Of a stretch of DNA of 64,000 nt, positions 11,736-13,575 are shown piece after piece (positions within the stretch are counted from its first letter, which is position 1; each line of letters opens with the position of its first letter). The notes below the pieces were generated by a model. That model was not told the DNA's origin. It saw only the letters and a program-made list of their open reading frames with translations, and searched no databases. The DNA is from Mesorhizobium sp. NZP2077 (GTDB lineage: Bacteria; Pseudomonadota; Alphaproteobacteria; Rhizobiales; Rhizobiaceae). The translations under genes were made by a program, and so were the position numbers. Where the stretch lies: contig NZ_CP051293.1 in assembly GCF_013170805.1 (NCBI RefSeq), positions 1,550,001 through 1,614,000 of the forward strand. The letters run 5' to 3'.

Positions 11736-12416
11736 TCAGGACCGTGAGCCGTTGGTGGCGATCCAGATGACATGGCGCGCGCCACGCTTGCCGTTGGCGC
11801 GCGTGTTGACCTCGTCGACCGCGAAGCCCGCTTGCTTCAGCCGCCTGACAAAGCCGCTGTCCGGCCCCTGCGACCATACCGCCAGCACGCCGCCGGGCTT
11901 GAGGGCAATGCGCGCTGCGCCGAGACCTGCCAGGCTGTACAGGGCGTCATTGCCCTTGTGGACGATGCCTTCGGGGCCATTGTCGACGTCGAGCAAAATG
12001 GCGTCCCAGGCTGCGGTCTCGGACCGTACCAGCTGCCCGACATCGGTCTCCTCTATGGTGACGCGGGGATCGTCGAGACAGCCGCCAAACACCTCGGCCA
12101 TTGGGCCGCGTGCCCAGGCGACGACCGCCGGCACAAGCTCGGCGACAACGATTTCGGCATCGTTGCCCAACTCGGCCAAGGCGGCGCGCAATGTGAAACC
12201 CATGCCAAGCCCGCCGATCAGGATCCTCGGCTGGCGATGGCCCGTGATCCTTTCACAGGACAGTTTCGCCAGCGCTTTCTCGGAGCCGCTCAGGCGGCTG
12301 TTCATCAGCTCGTTGGTGCCGAGCATAATCGAGAATTCGCTGCCGCGTCGCTTGAGGCGAAGTTCTCGGACACCATCCCCGGTCTTTGCCGAATCGAGCT
12401 GGACCCAGGGGATCAT
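11736..12416 (-). CDS. Spermidine-synthase-like SAM-dependent protein
   Basis: A 226-residue Rossmann-fold protein related to spermidine synthases. ILIGGLGMGFTLRAAL (about residues 65-80) is the nucleotide-binding loop, VVAELVPAVVAWA holds the acidic residue that binds the ribose, and AILLDVDNGPEGIVHKGNDALYS resembles the catalytic-Asp segment. The N-terminal domain is very short compared with true SpeE (about 290). It could be an aminopropyltransferase or simply a methyltransferase-like enzyme. It ends the short minus-strand run after yhhQ (3 bases apart), so it may share the yhhQ transcript. Confidence 0.75.
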   Translation of the reverse strand: MIPWVQLDSAKTGDGVRELRLKRRGSEFSIMLGTNELMNSRLSGSEKALAKLSCERITGHRQPRILIGGLGMGFTLRAALAELGNDAEIVVAELVPAVVAWARGPMAEVFGGCLDDPRVTIEETDVGQLVRSETAAWDAILLDVDNGPEGIVHKGNDALYSLAGLGAARIALKPGGVLAVWSQGPDSGFVRRLKQAGFAVDEVNTRANGKRGARHVIWIATNGSRS

Positions 12417-12419
12417 GGT

Positions 12420-13100
12420 TTAGACGGCCACGGCGGGCTGGCTCCAGCGGGCGGCGAGCAGCCGGTAGGGGATGAGCGCGACCACGGCGATGATCAGCTT
12501 CACCGAGAGGTCGCCGAGCGCCCAGGAGACCCAGCGCATGGCGTCGACGTGGAAGACACCCATCAGCGGCGCCGTCTCGAGCGCAAAGCTGTCATTCGGG
12601 CCGACGAAGGCAAAAGCGGCCGAGAAAGCGATGGTGAAAAAGACCATGGTGTCGAACACCGAGCCGACCAGCGTGCCGACGATGGGCGCCCGCCACCAGC
12701 TCTGCCGGCGCAGCCGGTTGAACACGATGACGTCGAGCAGTTGGGCGGACAGGAACGCGGCGCCCGAAGCCGCGGCAATGCGCACCAGCCGGTCGGCTGC
12801 GGTCTCGAATTCGATCAGGCCATGGCGGAACAGGAAGGGCGGAACCAGGATCGAGCAGACCACCGCTGTCATGAAGCCGACAAAGACGATCCTGCGCGCC
12901 ACGGCGGGCCCGTAGCGGCGGTTGGCGAGGTCGGTGACCAGGAAGGAGAAGGGATAGGTGAAAGCGCCCCAGGTGAGCAGGTCAGCCAGCGACAGGCCGC
13001 CGATCTGGCCCTGCATCGGGAACTGCACGAGAATGTTCGACGCCACGACGACGAGCGCCATGGCGGCCACGAAGGGCAAATATCTGGAGAAGGAACTCAT
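12420..13100 (-). CDS. yhhQ: Queuosine precursor transporter (YhhQ/VUT family)
   Basis: A 226-residue inner-membrane protein with about six hydrophobic helices that imports the queuosine precursors preQ0/preQ1. Family features are the first helix RYLPFVAAMALVVVASNILVQFP, LLTWGAFTYPFSFLVTDLANRRYG (the conserved TYPFxFLxTD motif) and SVFDTMVFFTIAF. The ATG at 13100 follows directly after an A-run that, with the 20 bases before it, resembles a preQ1-I riboswitch (separate entry), which fits the proposed substrate. The spermidine-synthase-like gene lies 3 bases downstream. Confidence 0.92.
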   Translation of the reverse strand: MSSFSRYLPFVAAMALVVVASNILVQFPMQGQIGGLSLADLLTWGAFTYPFSFLVTDLANRRYGPAVARRIVFVGFMTAVVCSILVPPFLFRHGLIEFETAADRLVRIAAASGAAFLSAQLLDVIVFNRLRRQSWWRAPIVGTLVGSVFDTMVFFTIAFSAAFAFVGPNDSFALETAPLMGVFHVDAMRWVSWALGDLSVKLIIAVVALIPYRLLAARWSQPAVAV

Positions 13101-13126
13101 TTTTTTATCCTGGGTAATGGAACCAG
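13098..13126 (-). promoter_or_regulatory. Candidate preQ1-I riboswitch overlapping the yhhQ start codon
   Basis: Read on the minus strand from 13126: CUGG, loop UUCCAUUAC, CCAG, then GAU and an A-run leading into AUG. CUGG (13126-13123) can pair with CCAG (13113-13110) as P1. Loop bases CAUU (13119-13116) are complementary to AAUG (13101-13098), forming an H-type pseudoknot that would bury the start codon. The UUC after P1, the C immediately before the P1 3' strand (the base that pairs with preQ1 in the family) and the A-rich third loop match the class I preQ1 layout. It is a few bases shorter than the known 33-34 nt aptamers. Proposed mode: preQ1 stabilises the pseudoknot and blocks translation. 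Confidence 0.62.
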
Positions 13127-13278: not shown

Positions 13279-13575
13279 TTACGCAGCGACCTGTTCGGCC
13301 AGCTTCTTGGCGATCTGCTTCTTCAACAGACGCGCGCGCTGCGACAGTTCCTTGACGTCGGCCTTGGCCAGGAAGGCGTCGAGACCGCCGCGATGTTCGA
13401 CCGAACGCAGCGCATTGGCCGAGATGCGCAGGCGCACATTCTGGTTCAGCGCTTCCGAAATCAGCGTCACATTGACGAGGTTCGGCAGGAAGCGACGCTT
13501 GGTCTTGTTGTTGGCGTGGCTCACATTGTTGCCGGTCTGGACTGCCTTGGCAGTGAGTTCGCAGGTGCGGGACAT
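13279..13575 (-). CDS. rpmB: 50S ribosomal protein L28
   Basis: A 98-residue ribosomal protein of the large subunit. [29 protein letters not shown] is the typical alphaproteobacterial L28 N-terminus, and the basic C-terminus ending [13 protein letters not shown] fits. The first Cys remains, but the other zinc ligands are not seen, as in the zinc-free form. The frame is open upstream to 13734, but the ATG at 13575 is fixed by the family N-terminus. It stands alone, with the DUF3108 gene divergent. Confidence 0.96.

Follow-up and report, generated by a model that had tools for sequence, protein, structure and literature searches.

Class I type II preQ1 riboswitches are known from B. subtilis queC and T. 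tengcongensis, and type III of this class was reportedly defined in a paper by McCown in 2014. Across bacteria, the yhhQ gene is described as being under preQ1 riboswitches of various classes (PMC5372724), and in Escherichia coli it is controlled by a class I type III preQ1 riboswitch (PMC10622847). The latter source gives a KD of 57.9 nM for preQ1 binding by the E. coli aptamer and reports its switching in living cells. In its structure, the edge of preQ1 is read by U6 and A27, and helix P2 is formed in the crystal by the pairs U11-A28, C10-G29, and C9-G30, i.e., by CCU with the Shine-Dalgarno AGG (PMC10622847). Type III elements are reported to be almost exclusively gammaproteobacterial, or to belong to Pseudomonadota (PMC10622847, PMC11625349). 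New subclasses with new expression-platform control were predicted by the authors of the E. coli study (PMC10622847).

In the window (the whole analyzed stretch of 64,000 nucleotides from Mesorhizobium sp. NZP2077), the gene for a queuosine precursor transporter of 226 aa, yhhQ, is located on the minus strand at 12420..13100. Its product matches TIGR00697 (106 bits, cut-off 50.95) and PF02592 (98.7 bits, cut-off 27.2), and the ATG at 13100-13098 is the earliest ATG, GTG, or TTG in the open reading frame. The 29 nucleotides of the minus strand from 13126 to 13098, CTGGTTCCATTACCCAGGATAAAAAAATG, end with this start codon and have the layout CUGG-UUCCAUUAC-CCAG-GAUAAAAAA-AUG, which was read directly from the sequence. 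Thus, the CUGG/CCAG helix, the UUCCAUUAC loop, and the A-rich linker named in a preliminary description of this locus were all found. Element position i corresponds to window coordinate 13127-i, and all the parts given below are on the minus strand.

The 5′ strand of helix P1 (C1 U2 G3 G4; 13123..13126) is partnered by the 3′ strand CCAG (C14 C15 A16 G17; 13110..13113), which was read from the sequence and whose pairs were counted across the family and E. coli-type elements. P1 has 4 bp, and in the window it is flanked by a G on each side. The loop between the strands begins with L1, U5 and U6 (13121..13122), which correspond to E. coli U6 and U7 by our own position mapping. It continues through C7 to the 5′ strand of P2, the anti-start triplet C8 A9 U10 (13117..13119), and then through U11 and A12 to C13 (13114), which is predicted to be the specificity base for preQ1 by homology to C14 of the E. 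coli crystal (PMC10622847). Among the 25 variants used for the covariance model described below, U5 and C13 are invariant and A12 is not. A Shine-Dalgarno sequence, AGGA (13108..13111), lies 7 nt 5′ of the AUG, its first two letters being the last two letters of the 3′ strand of P1. L3 (13101..13109) is composed of G18 A19 U20 and six adenines (A21-A26), the final one of which (13101) corresponds to E. coli A27. The start codon itself, A27 U28 G29 (13098..13100), also serves as the 3′ strand of P2. A helix of CAUU with AAUG had been proposed for this place; its CAU/AUG part stands, and the fourth pair, U11-A26, does not. Since position 11 can be U, C, or A, P2 has 3 bp with no fourth pair.

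A scan with YhhQ gave 573 related loci, and the element is present in all of the best 80, 78 of which are titled Mesorhizobium. A C-A mismatch in P1 is a single case among these 80 loci (L045, Mesorhizobium). In the window's genus as a whole, YhhQ was matched in 145 of 146 genomes. The diversity sample comprised 121 genomes of one family, which we take to be Rhizobiaceae in the GTDB sense; YhhQ was matched in 116 of them, and every leader was read. The element was found in 109 of these 116 yhhQ leaders, always with ATG as the start codon. Thus, the element is distributed family-wide and not in Mesorhizobium alone. It is more than a chance arrangement, given the conservation described next.

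With the start codon as the anchor of the alignment, mean conservation in the 109 leaders is 1.61 bits over the 26 positions preceding ATG, with 1.87-2.00 bits from -6 to -1. The flanks are far less conserved (0.06 bits at -70..-51, 0.11 at -50..-31, and 0.15 in codons 2-8), and conservation ends exactly at AUG. The linker has 3 nt in 107/109 elements. The AGG letters are missing from four leaders (L136, L142, L145, and L287), all of which retain P1 and CAU. One of these, L136, is also the sole element with a 7-nt linker.

A covariance model constructed from 25 variants, mostly from the family-sample genomes, found exactly one match in each of 109 of the 121 genomes and no match in the remaining 12. 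The 109 matched genomes are the same ones whose yhhQ leader shows the element, and the other 12 are 7 genomes having yhhQ with no intact element and 5 genomes with no YhhQ match, none of which (0/5) carries the element. Because the model was built mostly from the sampled genomes, this hit rate is true by construction; the exclusivity to yhhQ is not. In the window genome, the model scores 50.7 bits at the element versus 16 bits at the next best place (C1:4264038-4264081, L282, E 6.6), which was taken as a chance match. Outside the family, the element was found in none of 55 loci from the same order or class, inspected by eye and with the model around the top YhhQ-like matches, a part of which were weak. 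Likewise, none of 239 other genomes of the class matched the model under stricter filters with 31 candidates scored per genome. Apparently decayed remnants of the element precede yhhQ in two genomes of one genus (L298 in G255, 1.5 Mb, and L300 in G151, 1.1 Mb). Both are reduced genomes with no QueF match, as if the switch were being lost.

The Rfam PreQ1 model (RF00522), proposed at the outset as a check, matched neither the 601-nt nor the 61-nt window stretch nor the whole genome. As a control, the same model matches B. subtilis and misses the validated E. coli aptamer too; therefore, the negative result was set aside. Single-sequence folding, performed with a program that does not model pseudoknots, gave no support (z = +0.72).

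The preliminary description had placed the element within class I. That assignment is supported by the sequence evidence, and the right comparison proved to be type III. With class I type II elements, the window element shares the H-type pseudoknot, the AC before the 3′ strand of P1, and the A-rich L3; in contrast, the type II loop is longer, and the window element is missed by RF00522. The resemblance to type III is closer. The E. coli K-12 yhhQ leader is ttGGGTTCCCTCACCCCAAtggttaatcAAAAAGGtacaatATG, and its core, GGTTCCCTCACCC, is one base apart from the core common among the family variants, GGTTCCATCACCC. Between GGUUCC and UCACCC, E. coli has C and the common family variants have A; the window additionally has U for C after CAU. 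This link to the E. coli type was drawn from the short core, by eye and by pattern. The E. coli element and the present one share the gene, yhhQ, a 9-nt loop (UUCCCUCAC versus UUCCAU, U or C, and AC), the GG closing pairs, the specificity C, the A-rich L3, and a P2 formed between the loop and the sequence past the A tract. The C-to-A change in the loop is mirrored in the tail by AGG to AUG, converting the middle C-G pair to A-U. Thus, the pairing of P2 would be kept while its target has moved from the Shine-Dalgarno sequence to the start codon. By duplex energies, replacing CCU/AGG with CAU/AUG costs about 2.2 kcal/mol in helix stability.

The E. coli-type set comprised 22 leaders, those of E. 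coli and of 21 genomes with an E. coli-like YhhQ. The CCU/AGG form, GGGTTCCCTxxCCCC...AAAAAGG, was found in 20 of them (E. coli and 19/21). The third P1 pair is G-C in 20/20 of these elements versus U-A in the window element, and the fourth, the next one out, is T-A, A-T, or C-G in 16/20. When the family model was applied to the 22 loci, only one (L274) was matched at the aptamer, and this match, with 7.7 bits and E 6.7, is below significance; four other weak matches lie away from the aptamers.

The features of type III found here are a short P1 with GG closing pairs and with covariation, AC before the 3′ strand of P1 (A12 C13 in the window), and UU after its 5′ strand, which is present in the window and in 56/109 family elements, the remaining 53/109 having UG. 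Other features differ. P1 has 4 bp here versus 5-6 bp in type III (PMC10622847); the tail is AAUG in 109/109 elements versus AAGG, so that P2 holds the start codon instead of the Shine-Dalgarno sequence; and the Shine-Dalgarno sequence, part of P2 in E. coli type III, has moved into the 3′ strand of P1. The linker, nearly constant in the family, ranges from 3 to 44 nt in the 20 E. coli-type elements, and the host is alphaproteobacterial, in contrast to the host range reported for type III (PMC10622847, PMC11625349). Because an AAGG tail paired in P2 and a P1 of 5-6 bp were both absent, the element is not filed as a member of type III. Judging from its sequence, it is most fittingly described as a class I variant that would sequester the start codon and work like type III.

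Covariation in relatives had been suggested as a check of both helices, and it was found for P1. In a genome of 2.0 Mb (L297), P1 is CCGG/CCGG, a compensatory change of U-A to C-G. Nine family rows with seemingly shifted P1 letters are register artefacts, the pattern having taken an early C. For P2, CAU occurs with AUG in 109/109 family elements with no variation, and thus the evidence for its covariation is a single contrast with the E. coli-type elements, which perhaps arose in one event. GTG or TTG starts that could reveal covariation of P2 within the family form were searched for with the pattern GGTNNCAVNNCCCAGNNTAAAAAABTG, which is blind to other base changes or linker lengths; with at most one mismatch, it was matched in none of 394 genomes of the family.

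An open pattern allowing all four loop and tail combinations gave 65 matches in 398 genomes of the phylum, all flanks of which were read. Three P1 pairs are possible in 60 of the 65 matches, including 46 with CCT and AGG, 12 with CAT and ATG, 1 with CCT and ATG, and 1 with CAT and AGG. Thus, loop and tail are concordant in 58/60 matches with P1 versus 2/5 without P1, where three are discordant. Eleven of the 12 CAT and ATG matches are within the family, and the twelfth (L321) is inside an open frame of 342 aa. The discordant match with CCT and ATG (L320) is inside an open frame of 693 aa on the other strand. Among entries of the same order or the same class, neither form was matched by the open pattern. 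All pair counts were made by script, MAFFT having misaligned the tails. Since the concordance may reflect one evolutionary event, the number of sequences does not equal the strength of the evidence. The lone P1-compatible match with CAT and AGG (L371) has no start codon just downstream.

Taken with a probability of roughly 0.8, the best explanation of these data is that the element works as a translational OFF switch belonging to class I of the preQ1 riboswitches, with aptamer, ribosome-binding site, and start codon contained in 29 nt. The proposal in the preliminary description, a small translational switch resembling class I preQ1 riboswitches and holding AUG within P2, is thereby supported at the sequence level. 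The supporting evidence comprises the near-absolute conservation and the exclusive link to yhhQ in the family sample, the near-identity to the E. coli core at the same gene with its matched loop and tail change, and the P1 change in L297. Most probably, binding of preQ1 closes the pseudoknot, so that the start codon is buried. By analogy with the E. coli aptamer, we infer preQ1 as the ligand, the geometry of the pocket, and repression at the level of translation. When preQ1 is scarce, AGGA and AUG would be accessible, YhhQ would be made, and queuosine precursors would be imported. When preQ1 is present, it would pair with C13, its edge being read by U5 and by A26, the adenine before AUG. Homology mapping places U10-A27 as the ceiling of the pocket; the +1 A of the start codon is therefore proposed to sit on the ligand. 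P1 (CUGG/CCAG) and P2 (CAU/AUG) would close together, hiding AUG and the AG of AGGA, and initiation would stop. The linker is the spacer between the Shine-Dalgarno sequence and AUG in this arrangement, which would account for its fixed 3 nt; in the E. coli type, the Shine-Dalgarno sequence is in P2, and the linker can have 3-44 nt. Points that weigh against this explanation are the 4-bp P1, the weaker P2 with its invariant CAU and AUG, the P1 mismatch in L045, the two discordant P1-compatible matches (L320 and L371), the poor recovery of E. coli-type loci by the family model, the lack of the second U in 53/109 elements, the 45 element-bearing genomes with no strong QueF match, and the negative promoter scan.

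Two other readings were weighed against this riboswitch. One of them, that the leader is only a conserved strong ribosome-binding site with no ligand, fits the distance of AGGA from AUG and the A-rich spacer between them. It is highly improbable, since conservation extends to the loop and to the 5′ strand of P1, up to 26 nt before AUG, and since the leaders that have lost AGG still keep P1 and CAU. Moreover, the element was not seen at the yhhQ-like loci searched outside the family. Least probable of all is a DNA operator, i.e., an imperfect palindrome CTGG-N9-CCAG bound by a transcription factor controlling yhhQ. The palindromic arms do lie directly 5′ of the gene, but an operator needs neither the fixed A tract spanned by the conservation nor an end of conservation at AUG. 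It would also leave aside the mirroring of the loop change in the tail; a single copy is found per genome, and the core is the same as that of the RNA aptamer crystallized from the E. coli yhhQ leader (PMC10622847).

A third alternative retains the fold and the logic of the riboswitch and replaces its ligand by preQ0 or queuine, at least in some of the elements. Three loops were found in the 109 elements: UUCCAU (56), UGGCAU (44), and UGCCAU (9), the latter two among the family leaders L111-L198 and L283-L308. Thus, the second U (E. coli U7) is G in 53/109 elements, 44 of which are also altered at the next base (E. coli C8), and in the E. coli structure the bases altered in these loops form triples near the ligand (PMC10622847). 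YhhQ proteins are themselves described as carrying more than one precursor: that of E. coli transports preQ0 and preQ1, and that of Bartonella henselae also salvages queuine (PMC11570991). In addition, a strong match to QueF (at least 88 bits) was found in 64/109 element-bearing genomes and was absent from the other 45. All of this would suit another ligand in the UGGCAU and UGCCAU subgroup. Nevertheless, U5, the predicted specificity base C13, and the adenine preceding AUG are all kept, and no relation is visible between loop type and QueF, the genomes with and without it numbering 31/25 for UUCCAU, 28/16 for UGGCAU, and 5/4 for UGCCAU. The window element, for its part, has a loop of the E. 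coli type, for which a preference of about 138-fold for preQ1 over preQ0 is reported (PMC10622847). On balance, a ligand other than preQ1 appears unlikely.

For the preferred reading, a switch responding to preQ1, the supply of the ligand was analyzed as well. QueF is the enzyme that makes preQ1, and the window genome has it (107.5 bits). In Sinorhizobium meliloti, queC and queF mutants are reported to be rescued by 300 nM preQ1 in the medium (PMC3568095). Together, these two observations fit a supply of preQ1 as the ligand. Across the family, the strong QueF match occurs in 64/109 genomes with the element versus 1/7 without an intact one (Fisher p 0.043, ancestry not corrected), and p rises to 0.24 once a borderline match in G235 (27.9 bits, cut-off 27.3) is counted. 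Since this link is not robust, no association is claimed. Four of the five family genomes with no YhhQ match (G155, G189, G193, and G220) have a strong QueF match, hinting at synthesis without salvage.

The arrangement proposed here was compared with that of other riboswitches. The direct-occlusion riboswitches SAM-II, SAM-III, and SAM/SAH are described as having the expression platform inside the aptamer, as proposed for the present element; in contrast to it, the ribosome-binding site is embedded there and AUG lies downstream (PMC10907184). In the add adenine switch, both the ribosome-binding site and AUG are hidden, there by a separate hairpin outside the aptamer (PMC10907184). Among the literature matches listed, judged by titles and abstract openings, neither a type III preQ1 element from an alphaproteobacterium nor a class I aptamer whose pairing includes the start codon was found. 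In the available text of PMC10622847 and PMC11625349, the term "start codon" has no occurrences.

A more far-reaching reading, to which we give somewhat less than an even chance, is that the element is a fourth subtype of class I preQ1 riboswitches. In this joint proposal, the start codon would be part of the ligand-bound structure, its +1 A forming the ceiling and the -1 A touching preQ1. A single compensatory swap would have moved the target of P2 from AGG to AUG, the Shine-Dalgarno sequence would have entered P1, and the pocket would have been rebuilt in the large subgroup of UGGCAU elements, the ligand preference of which may differ.

If the riboswitch reading is true, the element, with aptamer, ribosome-binding site, and start codon in 29 nt, is among the smallest natural switches, and a single base-pair swap can shift a riboswitch between control signals. 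The element also accounts for the way in which a regulator present across a family is missed by the Rfam model. For rhizobia, it offers a point of access to queuosine supply; S. meliloti queC, queF, and tgt mutants are reported to fix nitrogen poorly with the host (PMC3568095).

Scanning for promoters and terminators at yhhQ gave no match. The gene upstream on the same strand, with its stop at 13279, is presumably rpmB, as recognized from its protein sequence. Downstream, a spermidine-synthase-like open reading frame (11736..12416, minus strand), annotated by position with NCBIfam matches under their cut-offs, begins 3 nt past the end of yhhQ. It is possibly co-transcribed with yhhQ and, if so, would come under the control of the same switch. 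An open reading frame start resembling that of this gene adjoins yhhQ in several relatives.
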